This document shows positions 5,212 to 18,016 of a DNA stretch of 35,691 nt, in pieces; position 1 is the stretch's first letter; the number at the start of each line of letters is the position of its first letter. The position numbers and the translations under genes are program-made. The stretch comes from Halothiobacillus sp. (GTDB lineage Bacteria > Pseudomonadota > Gammaproteobacteria > JAAZVP01): NCBI GenBank assembly GCA_018623495.1, contig JAAZVP010000023.1:1-35691 (forward strand), written 5' to 3'. The notes beneath the pieces are model-generated. The model made no database searches, was not told the origin of the DNA, and saw only the letters and a program-made list of their open reading frames with translations.

Positions 5212-5724
5212 TCACGACTCGCCGGTGTAGGAGGAGTCCTCCACCATCAGGTGGTGGCCGCCGGGATGCAGCCGGCCGTGCTTGATCTCGTCGGCATGGG
5301 CCTCGCGCACCGCCACCACCCGGACGTCGAAGTGCAGCTCGACGCCCGCCAGCGGGTGGTTGCCGTCGAGCACCGCGGTGTCCTCGCCCGCCTCCACCAG
5401 GGTAAAGTCGATCATCCCCTCGGGGCCCTGGACCTGCAGCGGCGTGCCCGGTTCGAGCGGGGTGTCGGGGTCCAGCCGGTCGCGGGGGACCTCGATCACC
5501 GCCTCGGCGACCCGCTCGCCGTACCCCTCCCCGGGCGGGACCACGGTGCTGAAGCGCTCGCCCTCCTCGCGGCCCTCCAGGGCCGTCTCCAGCCCGGGGA
5601 TGAGGTTGCCGTGGCCATGGATGTAGGCCAGCGGCCCGGCCCCCTCGGTGGTGTCCAGCAGCTCGCCCGCGTCGTCGGTGAGCGTGAACTCGATGTATAC
5701 CGCCCTGTCCTTCTCGATCTTCAT
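5212..5724 (-). CDS. slyD: SlyD-like FKBP-type peptidyl-prolyl isomerase
   Basis: It is a cytoplasmic proline isomerase/chaperone. The 170-residue protein has the FKBP core split by the insert-in-flap domain, as in SlyD: FTLTDDAGELLDTT, PLAYIHGHGNLIPGLETALEG (about residues 31-51), the GEGYGER flap (about 65-71) and HPLAGVELHFDVRV (about 118-131). Unlike E. coli SlyD (196 residues) it lacks a long His/Cys/Asp-rich metal-binding tail; only a few histidines remain near residues 148-157. The gene ends with no gap against the convergent PilZ gene: the two stop codons form TGATCA. It is 16 bases from the preceding AEC gene and probably co-transcribed. Confidence 0.86.
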   Translation of the reverse strand: MKIEKDRAVYIEFTLTDDAGELLDTTEGAGPLAYIHGHGNLIPGLETALEGREEGERFSTVVPPGEGYGERVAEAVIEVPRDRLDPDTPLEPGTPLQVQGPEGMIDFTLVEAGEDTAVLDGNHPLAGVELHFDVRVVAVREAHADEIKHGRLHPGGHHLMVEDSSYTGES

Positions 5725-7960: not shown

Positions 7961-9312
7961 GCCTTCCCCTCCCGCAGTGCCGCTTCCAGGTGCCCGGCCA
8001 GGTTGCCGAAGCCGCCGTTGCTCATCAACACGGCGCGGTCACCGGCCCGCAGGCGCGGCGCCTCGCCCGCGGCCATGGCCGCCACGCCGGTGTAGACCCG
8101 CGTCGGCACGGTCAACTCGGCCGCCAGTGCGCCGGCATCCCAACCCAGCCCCTCGGGGGCGTGGACCACCACCGCGTCGGCCCCCGCCAGGGCCACCGGC
8201 AACCGGGCGCGGTGAACCCCGGCCCGCATGCTGTTGGAGCGGGGATCGAGAAACACCACCAGCCGCCCCGCCGGCGCCTGCTCCCGCAGGGCCTGGAGGG
8301 TGGCGGCGATGGCGGTGGGATGGTGGGCGAAGTCGTCGATGATCGTCACGCCGTTCACCTCGGCGCGCGCCTCCAGCCGCCGGCGCACCCCGCGAAAGCC
8401 CGCCAGGGCTGCCAGCCCCACTGCCACCGGCACGCCGGCGTGGCGCGCGGCGAGGATCGCGGCCAGGGCATTGCGCCGGTTGTGCTCACCGGGCAGGTCG
8501 AGCTCCAGCCGGCCATGATCGAGATCGCCCTGGCGGAGCCGGTGACCGTCCTCCGCGTCCCCGTCGACGCGCCAGTCCGCCCCGGGCCCGAAACGCTCCA
8601 CGGGGGTCCAGCAGCCCATCGACAACACCCGTTCCAGCTCCGGGTCGCCGGCGTTGACCACCAGCTGCCCCTGGCCGGGCACGGTGCGCACGAGGTGGTG
8701 GAACTGGCGGCGGATGGCGGCCAGGTCGTCGAAGATGTCGGCGTGGTCGAACTCCAGGTTGTTCATCACCAGGGTCCGCGGCCGGTAGTGGAGGAACTTG
8801 GAACGCTTGTCGAAGAAGGCGGTGTCGTACTCGTCGGCCTCGACCACGAAGAAGGCCCCGCCGCCGGCCCGGGCCGAGACACCGAAGTTGCCGGGCACGC
8901 CACCGATCAGAAAACCCGGCTGCATGCCGGCGTATTCCAGGATCCAGGCCAGCATGCTGGCGGTGGTGGTCTTGCCGTGGGTGCCGGCCACCGCCAGCAC
9001 CCACTGCCCGGCGAGCACCCGCTCGCCCAGCCACTGGGGACCGGAGGTGTAGGGCATGCCGGCATCCAGCAGCCGCTCGATCACCGGCATGCCGCGGCGC
9101 ATCACGTTGCCCACCACGGTCAGGTCCTGGCCCTGGTCCAGCTGCGCGGGATCGAAGCCCTCGATCAGCGCCACGCCGGCGTCGGCCAGCTGGGTGCTCA
9201 TGGGCGGGTAGACGCCGGCGTCCATGCCCGTGACCGTGTGGCCCGCGGCGCGGGCCAGACGGGCGACGCCGCCCATGAAGGTGCCGCAGGCCCCCAGGAG
9301 ATGGACGTGCAT
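7957..9312 (-). CDS. mpl: UDP-N-acetylmuramate:L-Ala-gamma-D-Glu-meso-DAP ligase (murein peptide ligase)
   Basis: Mpl attaches recycled murein tripeptide directly to UDP-MurNAc, saving three Mur ligase steps. The 451-residue protein begins MHVHLLGACGTFMGGVARLARAAGHTV, where Mpl has GICGTFMGG. It has the ATP-binding GTHGKTTTASM (about residues 110-120), the MurC/Mpl-type EADEYDTAFFDKRSKF (about 158-173), HRRNAL-like HNRRNALAA and the C-terminal DDFAHHPTAI, with SNSMRAG typical of Mpl. The length is normal. It sits one base after an unknown membrane protein gene and overlaps ubiX. It complements the AmgK/MurU sugar-recycling genes at 12178-13841. Confidence 0.95.
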   Translation of the reverse strand: MHVHLLGACGTFMGGVARLARAAGHTVTGMDAGVYPPMSTQLADAGVALIEGFDPAQLDQGQDLTVVGNVMRRGMPVIERLLDAGMPYTSGPQWLGERVLAGQWVLAVAGTHGKTTTASMLAWILEYAGMQPGFLIGGVPGNFGVSARAGGGAFFVVEADEYDTAFFDKRSKFLHYRPRTLVMNNLEFDHADIFDDLAAIRRQFHHLVRTVPGQGQLVVNAGDPELERVLSMGCWTPVERFGPGADWRVDGDAEDGHRLRQGDLDHGRLELDLPGEHNRRNALAAILAARHAGVPVAVGLAALAGFRGVRRRLEARAEVNGVTIIDDFAHHPTAIAATLQALREQAPAGRLVVFLDPRSNSMRAGVHRARLPVALAGADAVVVHAPEGLGWDAGALAAELTVPTRVYTGVAAMAAGEAPRLRAGDRAVLMSNGGFGNLAGHLEAALREGKA

Positions 9313-9313
9313 C

Positions 9314-9838
9314 TCAGGCGCCCGCCACCGGGAAGAGCAGGCTCACCACCGCCGTGGAGAGCACGAAGTAGCCCAGCGCGGCGAGCACGCCCAGCCCCAC
9401 CCGCAGCGACAGGGCGTGGCGGTAGATCTGGCCCACCACCGCGAGGTTCCAGAACAGCACCGCCAGCAGCAGCATGCCCACCCCGCCGGGGGCGACGGCG
9501 GTCTCGGCGTCCATGGGCGGCAGGGCCAGCATCAGCGGCCAGGCGATCAGCGAGAAGAGCACGTTGGCACCGACGATGGCCGACAGCGTCTGGGTCACCC
9601 GCTCGGGCCGGCCCGCCATGCCCAGGAGCCCCCAGGTGTAGAGAAACAGCACCGCCATGTCGGTGACGTTCTGCGCCAGGGCCACCATCAGGTCGCCCAC
9701 CCGCGGGCCGATCACCAAGGTGCCGATGAGCACGTAGACCGCCGCCAGCCCGCCGAGCACGGCCTGCGAGGCCGGCAGGTCCTGGGGCCCGCGGCGCAGG
9801 AGGACGATGGCGACGAGGTTGCTCAGCAGGGCGGACAC
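9314..9838 (-). CDS. Uncharacterised inner-membrane protein upstream of mpl
   Basis: I do not recognise a named family. The 174-residue protein (from GTG at 9838) starts MSALLSNLVAIVLLRRGPQDLPAS and then has about four to five hydrophobic segments: LGGLAAVYVLIGTLVIG, AVLFLYTWGLLGM, LFSLIAWPLMLAL, GMLLLAVLFWNLAVVGQIY and VLAALGYFVLSTAVVSLLF. GPQDLPAS near the N-terminus followed by transmembrane pairs suggests a small Yip1-like integral membrane protein (weak). An in-frame ATG at 9871 would add 11 residues. I prefer the GTG because a CATAAT box covers that ATG and the added residues look non-coding. The gap to mpl is one base, so the two are probably one operon. Confidence 0.66.
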   Translation of the reverse strand: MSALLSNLVAIVLLRRGPQDLPASQAVLGGLAAVYVLIGTLVIGPRVGDLMVALAQNVTDMAVLFLYTWGLLGMAGRPERVTQTLSAIVGANVLFSLIAWPLMLALPPMDAETAVAPGGVGMLLLAVLFWNLAVVGQIYRHALSLRVGLGVLAALGYFVLSTAVVSLLFPVAGA

Positions 9839-9939
9839 GGTTGGGGAACCCGGGTTGGATCGAGGCCACATTATGCCCAGCGCCCCGACCGATTGAAACG
9901 ACCGGCCGGCGCACCGGGCGACACCGGCGCCCCGGCACG

Positions 9940-9964
9940 AAAAAGCCCGGCGCGCGGGCCGGGC
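9940..9964 (-). terminator. Rho-independent terminator of the persulfide dioxygenase gene
   Basis: On the minus strand, 29 bases after the stop, GCCCGGC (9964-9958) and GCCGGGC (9951-9945) form a perfect 7-bp GC stem with a 6-base loop. Five T residues (9944-9940) follow directly. This is the best intrinsic terminator in the window. Confidence 0.75.
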
Positions 9965-9992
9965 GGGTCTCGGTCTGCCGGGCGGCGGCCGT

Positions 9993-10682
9993 TCAGGCCA
10001 CCTCGCCGCAGCGCTCGTTGGCCGGCACGGCCACGTCGATGCGCTTGGGCCTGGGCAGGTCGAGTTCGTCCATCATCCGGATGAAGGCCTCGCGGCTCTC
10101 GGCCCGGACATAGGGGTTGCGCAGTTTCTCCTGGCCCACGGAGCTGACCCGGCGATCGTTGTAGTCGTGGGCGGGGTACACCAGGTACTCGTCCGGGTAG
10201 GCCATCAGCTTCCGGATGGAATCGTAGAGGGCACCGGCGTCGCCCTCCTGGAAGTCGGTGCGGCCGGCCGCCTCGATCAGGATGGTGTCGCCGGTGAACA
10301 GCCGGTCGCGCCAGCGATAGCTCATGCAGCCGTTGGTATGGCCCGGCGTGGCGATCGCGTGGAGCACCTCGTTGCCGAAGGTCAGCGTATCGCCGTCGGC
10401 CAGCATCAGGTCGGAGCAGGACACGCCGGTGCCGATGCCGGCGACGAATTCCGCGCCGGTGGCCTTTTTCAGGCCGCTGCCGCCGGTGACGTGATCGGCA
10501 TGGACGTGGGTCTCGACGATGTACTTGAGCTCGAGACCCAGTTCCTCGATCACCTTCAGGTCGCGGTCGACCTGCTCGAGCACCGGGTCGATGATCACCG
10601 CCTCGCGGGTATCCGCGTCGGCGATGATGTAGGTCATGGTGGACGTGCCACCATCCTCGAAGAGCTGCTTGAAGATAGCCAT
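9993..10682 (-). CDS. ETHE1-like persulfide dioxygenase (metallo-beta-lactamase fold)
   Basis: Enzymes of this type oxidise glutathione persulfide to sulfite with one mononuclear iron, detoxifying sulfide. In the 229-residue protein the metal ligands are visible: THVHADH (residues 58-64), TPGHTNG with His115, FTGDTIL with Asp132 and YPAHDY with His172. GRTDFQEGDA (140-149) is the motif typical of ETHE1-type proteins as opposed to glyoxalase II. I start at ATG 10682 (MAIFKQLFED); the 28 in-frame codons upstream are arginine/glycine-rich and not conserved-looking. The gene is monocistronic, between a strong terminator and a promoter carrying an inverted repeat, as would suit a sulfide-responsive gene. 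Confidence 0.9.
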   Translation of the reverse strand: MAIFKQLFEDGGTSTMTYIIADADTREAVIIDPVLEQVDRDLKVIEELGLELKYIVETHVHADHVTGGSGLKKATGAEFVAGIGTGVSCSDLMLADGDTLTFGNEVLHAIATPGHTNGCMSYRWRDRLFTGDTILIEAAGRTDFQEGDAGALYDSIRKLMAYPDEYLVYPAHDYNDRRVSSVGQEKLRNPYVRAESREAFIRMMDELDLPRPKRIDVAVPANERCGEVA

Positions 10683-10738
10683 GACGAATCTTCCGCTTGC
10701 CGGCGGGCCGCGCGCCCGGCGCCGCCCGCGTGAGTGAA

Positions 10739-10785
10739 GGCGTGATCGACCCCCAAGGATAATCACGCCCCGACGTTATACGCAA
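10739..10785 (-). promoter_or_regulatory. Promoter with inverted repeat upstream of persulfide dioxygenase
   Basis: On the minus strand TTGCGT (10785-10780) and TTATCC (10762-10757) are 17 bases apart, with a TG before the -10 box. A perfect 8-bp inverted repeat, GGCGTGAT at 10739-10746 and ATCACGCC at 10762-10769 with a 15-base spacer, brackets the -10 box. Half-site centres are 23 bp apart, about two helical turns, as for a dimeric repressor. The repeat is seen directly; its role as operator is inference. Confidence 0.45.
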
Positions 10786-10885
10786 ATAACCCGGGCTTAT
10801 GGCCGGCGCGGGACCCGCCCCGGGGCACCAGCTGTTACCATCCGGGGAACGGCCACCGAGCGACGCGCCACCGGCGGGAGGGACC

Positions 10886-13841
<2,956 letters not shown>

Positions 13842-13887: not shown

Positions 13888-15321
13888 ATGGGACAGGAAA
13901 TCGACCGCGAGGACTTCAGCGAGGCCGACTTCCACGAGTTCCGCCGGCGCCTGGCCGCGGAGACCGCGATTCTCCAGGCGTGGCTGGAGAGTGGCCACCT
14001 GGACGAGGCCCCCGCCGCCATCGGCGGCTTCGAGGTGGAGGCCTGGCTGATCGACCCGCAGACGCTGCGCCCCGCCCCGCGAAACCGCGAGCTCATCGAA
14101 CGCGCCGACGACCCGCTGCTCACCCCCGAGCTGGCGCGCTTCAACATCGAGCTCAACACCACGCCCGAAGCGCTCGCCGGCGACGGCCTCGAGCGCATGC
14201 ACGCCGAGATGCAGGCCACCTGGGAACGGCTCGCGCGCACCGCCGGGGAAATCGGCTGTGCCACGGCCCTGGCCGGCATCCTGCCCTCGGCGCGGCATGC
14301 CGACTTCGGCGTCGAGAGCATGTCCGACATGACCCGCTACCGGGCCCTCAACCGCCAGTTGCTGCGCCTGCGCGAGGGACGCCTGCCGCACCTCGACATC
14401 CGCGGCCGCGAGCACCTGGAACTCGACCACCCCGACGTGATGCTCGAGGCCGCCGCCACCTCCTTCCAGATCCATCTCCAGGTGCCGGCCTCGCGCATTC
14501 GCCGCTTCTTCAACGCCTCGATGATCGCCTCCGGCCCGCTGCTCGCCGCCGGGGCCAACTCGCCCTACCTCTTCGGCCGCGACCTGTGGGCCGAGACCCG
14601 CGTCCCGCTGTTCGAACAGGCCGTGGAACTGGGCACCTACGCCCTGCGCGGGCCACTCAAGCGGGTCACCTTCGGCAGCGACTACATCGCCGAGAGCCCG
14701 CTGGAGCTGTTCCGCGAGAACCTCGAACACTACCCGCCGCTGCTGCCGATCCTCTTCGACGACCCGCCGGAGCGGCTTGCCCACCTGCGCCTGCACAACG
14801 GCACCATCTGGCGCTGGAACCGGCCACTGGTGGGAGTGGACGGCACCCCCCACCTGCGCCTTGAGCAACGGGTCTGCCCGGCCGGCCCCACGCTCGCCGA
14901 CCAGGTGGCCAACGCCGCCTTCTTCTTCGGCCTGGCCCAGTCACTGGCCGACCGGCCGTTCCCCCCCGCCGGCCAACTGGAGTTCGCCCACGCCAAGCAG
15001 AACCTCTACCAGTGCGCCCGCCACGGCCTGGCCGCGGACGTCCACTAGCTGGACCGCAAGCGCCACCCCGTGCGCCAGCTGATCCTCGACCAGCTCCTGC
15101 CCCGGGCGCAGAAGGGCCTGGAGGCGACCGGCATGGATCCCGGCGTGGCCCGGCGCTGGCTGGGCATCGTCTTCGCGCGGGTGCGCAGCCGCCGCACCGG
15201 CGACCGGTGGCAGCGTGCCTTCGTCGCCCGCCACGGGGCCGACATGGACCGCCTCACCGCGGCCTACCTGGAACACCAGGCCACGGGCGTGCCGGTGCAC
15301 GAGTGGCCCTGGCCGGAATGA
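13888..15321 (+). pseudogene. GCS2-family glutamate-cysteine ligase-like gene interrupted by an in-frame amber codon
   Basis: Read through the stop, this is a 477-residue protein of the GCS2 type (COG2170-like carboxylate-amine ligases). The first part (386 codons) has GGFEVEAWLID, FNIELNTTPEAL, the SFQIHLQV strand and AANSPYLFGRDLWAETR. The reading frame meets TAG at 15046-15048 after HGLAADVH. It then continues without another stop for 90 codons, LDRKRHPVRQLILDQLLP to GVPVHEWPWPE, which reads as the normal C-terminal helical tail. Family members commonly have Trp in this spot (V-x-W-[LM]-D), so one TGG-to-TAG change explains it. It starts at ATG 13888 with GGAGC upstream, 46 bases after murU. 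Alternatives are a truncated but active 386-residue protein (13888-15048), a sequencing error, or suppression. Substrate unknown. Confidence 0.8.
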
Positions 15322-15369: not shown

Positions 15370-15711
15370 TCAGCCCGCCAGCAACCCGTCGGTCCGGGCC
15401 GCCATCACGAAATCGTTGCGGTGCAGCCCCTGGATCTTGTGGCTCCACCAGGTGACCGTCACCTTGCCCCACTCGGTGAGGATGGCCGGGTGATGACCCT
15501 CGGCCTCGGCGATCTCGCCGACGCGGTTGGTGAAATCCAGCGCGGCGGCGAAGTCGTCGAAGGTGAACACCCGCTCGAGCTGCTTGACCCCGTCGCGCTT
15601 GACCACTTTCCACTCCGGGATCTCGCGGGAATACACCTCGATCTCCTCCGGCGTCACCCGCGGGGCGTCCGCTCGGCAGGCTTCGCAATGGGCACTCGCC
15701 AGTTCGCTCAT
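15370..15711 (-). CDS. phhB: Pterin-4a-carbinolamine dehydratase
   Basis: It dehydrates 4a-hydroxytetrahydrobiopterin, recycling the pterin cofactor of aromatic amino acid hydroxylases; bacterial forms also occur without such hydroxylases. The 113-residue protein has the PCD signature [21 protein letters not shown] (residues 71-91), with the catalytic histidines 73-74 and His91, and [27 protein letters not shown] before it. An N-terminal Cys pair ([10 protein letters not shown]) is common in the proteobacterial version. ATG 15711 is preceded by GAGGAG that partly lies in a hairpin (15721-15741). No phenylalanine hydroxylase gene is in the window. Confidence 0.93.
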
Positions 15712-15720
15712 GGATCGCTC

Positions 15721-15741
15721 CTCGAGGGGGTGTCCCTCGAG
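15721..15741 (-). promoter_or_regulatory. Hairpin touching the phhB ribosome binding site
   Basis: CTCGAGGG (15721-15728) and CCCTCGAG (15734-15741) form a perfect 8-bp stem with a 5-base loop. In the phhB leader the 3' arm ends in GAG, which runs into GAGCG, so the likely ribosome binding site GAGGAG is half inside the stem, about 10 bases before the ATG. Formation would hinder initiation. The structure is seen; regulation is inferred. No gene is seen in the rest of 15742-15872. Confidence 0.4.
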
Positions 15742-15872
15742 CCTAGCTGCCTTCTCCGCGGCCTTCCAGGCAACGCCGGGCAACGGTGGGCGCGGCCGCC
15801 CGGCCGCGAACATTCCCGGGTCGCTAAAGGGGCTTCCGCTTCGCGCCCGGGGATCGGCCCCGCCGACCGGTC

Positions 15873-16133
15873 TCAGGCCGGCCGGGTGGCCGCCTCGAGG
15901 GCCTCGATGCGCTCCAGGGCCTGCTCGCGCCGGTCCCCGCAGAGGGCCGGCGTGGCCGAGAAGGCCGCGCAGACCGCGGGCCGTTCCGGCCGGCCGAAGA
16001 GTTCGCAGCGGTAATCCGGGGTGAGGTGGGCACAGGGGACCCCGGCCGGCTTGCCCGCCGGCATGCCGGGCAGCGGCGAGGCGATGGAGGGGGCGATGCA
16101 GCAGGCCCCGCAGCCCGGCCGGCACTCCATCAC
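15873..16133 (-). CDS. YkgJ/UPF0153-type cysteine-cluster protein
   Basis: An 86-residue protein with eight cysteines: [11 protein letters not shown] (4, 8, 11, 12), VPCAHL (34), YRCELFG (43), PAVCAAF (55) and LCGD (65). The CxxxCxxCC head and the later CxxL...C pattern are those of the YkgJ family of putative zinc- or iron-chelating proteins, closest in size to YeiW. The role is unknown. The start is GTG 16133 in a GTGA overlap with the mazG stop, or the directly following ATG at 16130. It is very probably translated from the mazG message. Confidence 0.83.
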
Positions 16134-16909
16134 TCGCCCTCCCAGATCCGCTCCAGGCGGGCCGCCGGGGCCGATTCGGCGGTCTCGCCCTCCTCGGCGA
16201 GCGCCTCCTCCAGGTCGCCGAAGCGGGCCTCGAAGCGGTTGCTGGCATGGCGCAGGGCCTGCTCGGCGTCCACGCCCTGCTCCCGGGCCAGCGATACCGC
16301 GGCGAACAGTACCTCGCCCACGGCGTCCAGCCGGTTGCGATCGGTGGCCGTCTCCACGGCCGCCAGCTTCGCCTCCAGCTCCCCCGCCGCGGTGGGGAAC
16401 GGCGTGCCCACGCGGGCGGCGCGCTTTTGCAGCTTCTGCGCCCGCACCAGGGCCGGCAGGGCCCGGGCCACGCCGTGCAGGGCACCGGTGGGGAGCGAGT
16501 CGCCGGCACGGGCCTCGCGCTCGCGCTCCTTCTCGCGCTCCCAGGCGGCCTTGAGCTCGGCCTCGTCGCGGATCTCGGCGTCGCCGAAGACATGCGGGTG
16601 GCGCCGGACCATCTTGTCGACGATGGCCCGGGCGACGTCGGCAAAGTCGAAATAACCGGCCTCCTCGGCCATGCGCGCGTGAAAGACCACCTGGAAGAGC
16701 AGGTCCCCCAGCTCGCCCGGCAGCTCGTCGATGGCCTCGCGGTCGATGGCATCGGCCACCTCGTAGGCCTCCTCCACGGTGTAGGGGGCGATGGTGGCAA
16801 AGCGCTGCCGCCGATCCCAGGGACAGCCGTGCTCGGGATCGCGCAGCCGTGCCATCACCGCCAGGAGTTCCGCCATGGGCTCCAGGTCGAAGCCGCTCTC
16901 TTCGCTCAT
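16130..16909 (-). CDS. mazG: Nucleoside triphosphate pyrophosphohydrolase
   Basis: MazG hydrolyses (d)NTPs to monophosphates and pyrophosphate, and can lower (p)ppGpp levels and clear aberrant nucleotides. The 259-residue protein is two MazG modules in tandem. The first has [15 protein letters not shown] (residues 23-37), [13 protein letters not shown] (43-55) and [13 protein letters not shown] (66-78), giving the metal-binding ExxE...ExxD set. The second is weaker ([35 protein letters not shown]), as in E. coli Maz[13 protein letters not shown] is a standard family motif. ATG 16909 follows GGGAGG. The gene is divergent from the aspartoacylase-like gene. Confidence 0.94.
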
Positions 16910-16990: not shown

Positions 16991-18016
16991 ATGCCCCGGA
17001 TTCTCGACCACCTGCCCGACGGCTTTCTCGATACCCCCGCCCGCGAACTGCACCGGGTCCTGGACGGCCCCACGCTGATCCATCTCGACGGGCGGCGCCG
17101 CCCGCCCCTGTTCGCCTCCGTGCTCCTCCACGGCAACGAGGACGTGGGGCTGGTGGCCATCCAGCGCCTGCTGCGCGACTACGCGGGCCGCGAGCTGCCG
17201 CGGGCGCTGTCGATCTTCGTGGGCAACGTCGCCGCCGCCCGCGAGGGCCGCCGGCGCCTGGACGGGCAGCCCGACTTCAACCGGGTGTGGTCGGAGGACG
17301 TCCCCGACTCCCCCGAGCGACGCATGGCCCGCGAGGTGACCGAGCGGATGCAGGCGACCGGGGTGTTCGCCAGCGTGGACGTGCACAACAATACCGGCAT
17401 CAACCCCCACTACGGCTGCATCAACCGCCTGGAACCGCAGTTTCTCCATCTGGCCGCGCTTTTCAACCGCACGGCGGTCTACTTCATCCACCCGCCCCAG
17501 GTGCAGTCCATGGCCTTCGCCCGCTTCTGCCCGGCGATCACCCTGGAATGCGGCAAGACCGGCTCGCCGGGCAGCGAGGCCCATGCCCACGAGTACCTGG
17601 ACGCCTGCCTCAACCTCGCCGGGATCCCCGACCACCCGGTCGCCGAGCACGACCTGGACCTCTACCACACGGTGGCCCGGGTCACCGTCCCCGACCACCT
17701 GCGGATCGGCTTCGCCGACCCCGGGGCCGACGTCAGCTTCCTGCCCGAGCTGGACCACCTCAACTTCCGCGACCTGTCCGCCGGCACCCCGATCGCCGAT
17801 TTGCGCGAGGCCACCGGTCCCTGCCCGGACGTGCACGACGAGCACGGCCGGGCGGTCACCGGCCGCTACTTCGAGTGCCGCGACGGGCGCCTCTACACCC
17901 GCCGGCCCTTTCTGCCCGCCATGCTCACCCGCGACACCCGCATCATCCGCCAGGACTGCCTGTGCTACATCATGGAGCGCTACGACTGGCGCGAGGGGCC
18001 GGTGTCGAGCGAATAG
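16991..18016 (+). CDS. Aspartoacylase/succinylglutamate desuccinylase-family metallohydrolase
   Basis: A 341-residue zinc-dependent amidohydrolase of the M14-like AstE/ASPA family. The zinc site is seen in SVLLHGNEDVG (His47, Glu50) and SVDVHNNTG (His132). DFNRVW (95-100) supplies the substrate-binding arginine, and ITLECGKTG (about 182-190) the catalytic glutamate. A C-terminal beta domain follows. Unlike AstE it is not beside an arginine succinyltransferase operon, so the substrate is unknown; N-acyl amino acids are a reasonable guess. The ATG is at 16991. The last 37 bases overlap the convergent DUF218 gene. The stop is TAG. Confidence 0.85.
   Translation: MPRILDHLPDGFLDTPARELHRVLDGPTLIHLDGRRRPPLFASVLLHGNEDVGLVAIQRLLRDYAGRELPRALSIFVGNVAAAREGRRRLDGQPDFNRVWSEDVPDSPERRMAREVTERMQATGVFASVDVHNNTGINPHYGCINRLEPQFLHLAALFNRTAVYFIHPPQVQSMAFARFCPAITLECGKTGSPGSEAHAHEYLDACLNLAGIPDHPVAEHDLDLYHTVARVTVPDHLRIGFADPGADVSFLPELDHLNFRDLSAGTPIADLREATGPCPDVHDEHGRAVTGRYFECRDGRLYTRRPFLPAMLTRDTRIIRQDCLCYIMERYDWREGPVSSE

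Follow-up and report, generated by a model that had tools for sequence, protein, structure and literature searches.

The amber codon and its setting

The locus raises the question of what a single amber codon is doing inside an otherwise undamaged ligase gene: it could record the recent death of that gene, an error in the assembled sequence, a shortened protein that is still active, or a stop that is read through locally. These four options were listed in an earlier note on this DNA, and the present analysis supports the list, with a recent nonsense mutation placed first and a consensus error second. The window, meaning the whole stretch of 35,691 nucleotides that was analysed, is the entire contig C11 of a draft genome of 110 contigs (2.46 Mb, 98.97% complete), and the genomes used for comparison include no other member of the host's order. 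The relevant features are:

13140..13841, plus strand: murU, encoding N-acetylmuramate-1-phosphate uridylyltransferase, with an approximate start (lies upstream of the ligase in 56 of 99 fetched relatives)
13888..15045, plus strand: GCS2/YbdK-fold carboxylate-amine ligase, part before the stop, 386 codons (reading frame, Pfam, homologues, Foldseek)
15046..15048, plus strand: in-frame TAG, codon 387 (98 homologues compared, of which 97 have TGG for Trp and one has Gly)
15049..15321, plus strand: remainder of the ligase, 90 codons and the true TGA stop, encoding the last four helices (homologues, coding score, model)
15370..16909, minus strand: three genes between the ligase and the amidohydrolase (gene calls in the window), namely
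15370-15711, minus strand: phhB
15873-16133, minus strand: small Cys-rich ORF
16130-16909, minus strand: mazG
16991..18016, plus strand: AspA/AstE-like amidohydrolase (PF24827), undamaged; obligate partner of the ligase in the genomes surveyed (flank survey, co-occurrence)

The frame opened by the ATG at 13888 meets TAG at codon 387 (15046-15048) and then continues through 90 sense codons to a TGA at 15319-15321, which gives a protein of 477 residues if the TAG is read through; no other lesion is visible within the gene when the frame is read. Since 22% of the stop-to-stop gaps in this GC-rich window span at least 90 codons, the open stretch is unremarkable in itself and the case depends on homology.

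Homologues across the stop codon

Two sources supplied relatives of the ligase, 56 genomes of the class and the GTDB contig collection, and a few records are present in both. At the column of codon 387, 97 of 98 gammaproteobacterial homologues carry Trp, always encoded by TGG, and the remaining one (L030) carries Gly, so that the conserved Trp which the earlier note had named is indeed there. The homologues can be aligned past codon 387 and on to the last residues of the tail, and their lengths (mostly 471-483 aa, the intact ones reaching about 477 aa) match the 477 residues that had been predicted for the restored protein. A family that naturally ends at codon 387, which would have explained the stop without any lesion, is ruled out by the same alignment, as no homologue stops there. 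Nor was a TAG at this codon found in any of the 98 aligned loci, and a search of viral contigs for closer relatives returned one partial, distant match only.

Single-stop lesions nevertheless recur in this gene, as a second copy (L075; NZ_JAAXLT010000065.1) has one in-frame TAA in place of a conserved Gln at query position 442; about 2% of ligase copies, in a set that is mostly metagenome-derived, carry one stop. The contig bearing this TAA is filed under a cyanobacterial MAG and its ligase locus is of gammaproteobacterial type, possibly a binning contaminant. A contig titled Halobacteria archaeon (L024; JABDRC010000159.1) likewise holds a close gammaproteobacterial-type ligase copy (56% identity) together with the partner gene, and is likely mis-binned.

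State of the sequence beyond the stop

The 90 codons beyond the TAG bear no mark of decay. Among columns conserved in at least 90% of homologues, the host sequence departs at 8 of 120 before the site (relatives average 3.5, with a maximum of 32) and at none of 14 after it. Relative to the front, the tail has an identity of 0.84, a value that 85 of 96 relatives do not reach. The GC3 values on the two sides of the stop are 0.93 (before) and 0.96 (after), and the coding score, for which all five competing frames served as reference, is 0.58 upstream of the stop and 0.49 downstream. Two marks of a recent pseudogene, a sense codon at the site in orthologues and little further decay, are present.

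The partner gene and the glutathione pathway

An AspA/AstE-like gene lies in the flank of the ligase in 90 of 99 fetched loci, generally as the next gene, and murU lies upstream in 56 of the 99. Each of the 56 genomes of the class comes from a different family, and ligase and amidohydrolase are confined to the same 20 of them, a coincidence with a probability of about 1e-15 under independent placement with phylogeny ignored. The amidohydrolase occurs without the ligase in 0 of the 55 other genomes, and the association holds where the two genes are not neighbours, lying on two contigs in G005 and 1.65 Mb apart in G019. A TGA seemingly inside the partner gene of G026 proved to be that gene's own end. 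This strict co-occurrence is new here, and the literature searched held nothing on a pairing of GCS2 and aspartoacylase genes. It suggests a make-and-cleave pair; the two genes probably form a two-gene module in which an amide is made and then cleaved. Elsewhere in the host genome (L218; G000:C89, 754-3082), a RimK-type ATP-grasp ligase gene is directly followed by an AstE/AspA-like gene, a second such pair.

A role for the ligase as the sole source of gamma-glutamylcysteine is ruled out by an intact gshA (TIGR02049, 514 bits) that adjoins gshB on contig C99; a gshA of the PF04262 type was not found in the genome. With this pair intact, glutathione synthesis is not the task of the ligase in the window. 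As it is also accessory, being present in 20 of the 56 genomes of the class, its loss can be tolerated.

An intact partner that is never seen without the ligase in 55 other genomes fits any of three situations: the ligase gene still works, its lesion is very young, or the base is wrong. Together with the undecayed tail, it says that the ligase worked until very recently, or still does, and hence that the lesion is either recent or not real.

Fold of the ligase and the cost of truncation

The designation GCS2-like, given from the letters alone, stands at the level of the fold and falls short at the level of the family. Pfam GCS2 (PF04107) is matched with 37.5 bits against a cut-off of 21, over the N-terminal motif region only, whereas the NCBIfam YbdK model TIGR02050 yields 43.9 bits against a cut-off of 176.4 and no NCBIfam model of the GCS2/YbdK family reaches its cut-off; the protein thus has the same fold and superfamily but is not filed as YbdK. 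A search of the PDB by sequence gave no matches, so a fold search was needed. The read-through protein was modelled with high confidence from 64 aligned relatives (pLDDT 94.2, pTM 0.94), and its nearest Foldseek match was YbdK 1r8g (TM-score 0.82 on the length of YbdK, over 433 columns; E 4.5e-14), with plant and yeast glutamate-cysteine ligases next. In this model, codon 387 comes directly after a short strand (384-386), and the part lost to the stop comprises a strand (392-394) and four helices (395-413, 418-434, 438-449 and 453-464).

How much activity could survive without this part bears on the proposal that the 386 residues function alone, or are complemented by a peptide of 62 residues started at the ATG at 15133. 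In its favour, most of the invariant residues that are charged or polar are found upstream of codon 387, and the superfamily is described as having four conserved C-terminal helices that lie outside its catalytic motifs (PMC2588565); the ATG at 15133 is moreover preceded by GGAGG eight bases upstream. Against this, no homologue stops near codon 387, all 14 conserved tail columns are retained, and R431 and W441 in the tail are invariant, as are P469 and W473. A restart at 15133 would leave out residues 388-415, the first tail helix among them, and its GGAGG falls within an ordinary run of Leu-Glu-Ala codons. Losing the C-terminal helices should mainly harm folding. A shortened active protein is unlikely, as the stop takes away all four of these helices; together with the split form, it retains very little probability.

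Decoding of TAG in the host

Genome-wide recoding of the amber codon, which had been judged unlikely from the use of TAG as a genuine stop, finds no support in four lines of evidence. Release factor 1 is intact (prfA, 542 bits). TAG is a common real stop: of 492 stop-bearing ORFs picked by coding signal, 76 end in it (about 15%, beside 380 TGA and 36 TAA), a sample drawn from the window and further stretches amounting to about 0.85 Mb of the 2.46 Mb. The pyrrolysine and suppressor tRNA genes that the earlier note had wished to see looked for did not appear: a CUA anticodon is carried by none of the 36 tRNAs found, a list that lacks His and Ile and could therefore miss a suppressor, and a pattern search for such a tRNA gave only the D-loop of a tRNA-Glu and two non-tRNA sites. 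PylS is absent, its model (cut-off 178) giving just two weak matches, one of 24.7 bits and one of 19.4 bits, the latter inside lysS.

A codon-usage model trained on the host genome and built from the ligase gene was used to look for other in-frame stops in the same 0.85 Mb, roughly one third of the genome, gene junctions being separated by eye. One was found, in a REP-associated (RAYT/Y1) transposase gene (L109; G000:C8, 4872-5474), with TAG at 5256 and an intact frame beyond. Homologues of the transposase vary freely opposite this codon (C, G, A, N, D, Q, K, R). Transposases are often broken, and real lesions are common in them. An apparently broken lysS on the same contig was a false alarm, the gene being intact (10213-11718) and the downstream fragment a duplicated tail by a fic gene. 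In that region (about 9230-10213, minus strand), just downstream of lysS, a small ORF lies upstream of a gene for a fic-type adenylyltransferase (9380-9988), and a second, degraded lysS tail follows: an insertion that duplicated the 3' end of lysS.

A more local form of read-through would have a near-cognate or undetected suppressor tRNA decode codon 387 at a rate that suffices for a working level of the ligase. It would account for a frame that is constrained past the stop as in intact genes and for the retention of the partner gene, and there is precedent in the reported bacterial cases of a conserved in-frame stop whose downstream sequence is under purifying selection (PMC7918605). Both in-frame stops found are TAG, though TAG makes up only about 15% of stops; two of two is a mildly suggestive hint, but the sample is much too small to argue from. 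The tRNA and pattern searches, the intact RF1 and the missing PylS weigh on the other side, as does the position of the second TAG, in a RAYT transposase and at a variable site. No relative shares the stop in the ligase, and the TAG itself is thus without evolutionary conservation. Local amber decoding is very improbable, and it is equally improbable that the codon is usefully read through and that the ligase still works despite a stop in its C-terminal domain.

A probable recent nonsense mutation, or possibly a wrong base

The reading that we favour, with a probability somewhat under 0.6, is a young single nonsense mutation, fixed or polymorphic, in a two-gene accessory module, which leaves a truncated and probably inactive ligase. 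A single nonsense mutation would have arisen recently at codon 387, whether now fixed or still polymorphic, and RF1 would terminate translation there. The product would be a protein of 386 residues without its last short strand and four C-terminal helices, probably unstable and inactive, and the remainder of the gene would have been cut off too recently to have decayed. The codon, the homology across it, the undecayed tail, the fold, RF1, the partner gene and an independent gshA-gshB pair are all shown by the analysis; we infer the presence of the base in the living cell, the youth of the mutation and the death of the truncated protein.

The undecayed gene and the intact partner also fit a consensus error, in which a wrong base or a minor strain variant was called and the ligase gene of the organism is intact. 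The assembly is a draft in 110 contigs, the damage amounts to one substitution in a ligase gene that shows no decay elsewhere, and the obligate partner, which no other genome has without the ligase, is intact. Substitution errors are, however, rare in a short-read consensus, and the surrounding sequence looks clean, the only further in-frame stop in some 0.85 Mb being that in a transposase-type gene. We regard such an error as possible and the foremost alternative, tentatively ranked below a recent nonsense mutation.

As an in-frame stop, the case is an ordinary one, since a draft genome here carries a single lesion in a single accessory gene. Its useful by-product is the strict co-occurrence of a GCS2-fold ligase with an AspA/AstE-like amidohydrolase. 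Should the lesion be real, the host would be the sole sampled genome that has the amidohydrolase without a working ligase.

Comparison with known systems

The protein resembles the YbdK/GCS2 ligases (PF04107, TIGR02050, 1r8g) in fold and scores above the Pfam GCS2 cut-off, but it is about 100 residues longer, has 16% identity, and is a predicted ligase in a genome with a separate gshA. An in-frame TAG is shared with systems of pyrrolysine or amber recoding, whereas here RF1 is present, TAG is widely used as a stop, and neither PylS nor a CUA tRNA was found. The conserved in-frame stops of the bacterial survey (PMC7918605) differ in that the stop here is not conserved in relatives, so that the argument made there for selected read-through does not apply. 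What the locus shares with the bacterial pseudogenes and in-frame stops that arise by a single nonsense change (PMC7918605) is one stop interrupting a frame that is otherwise intact.
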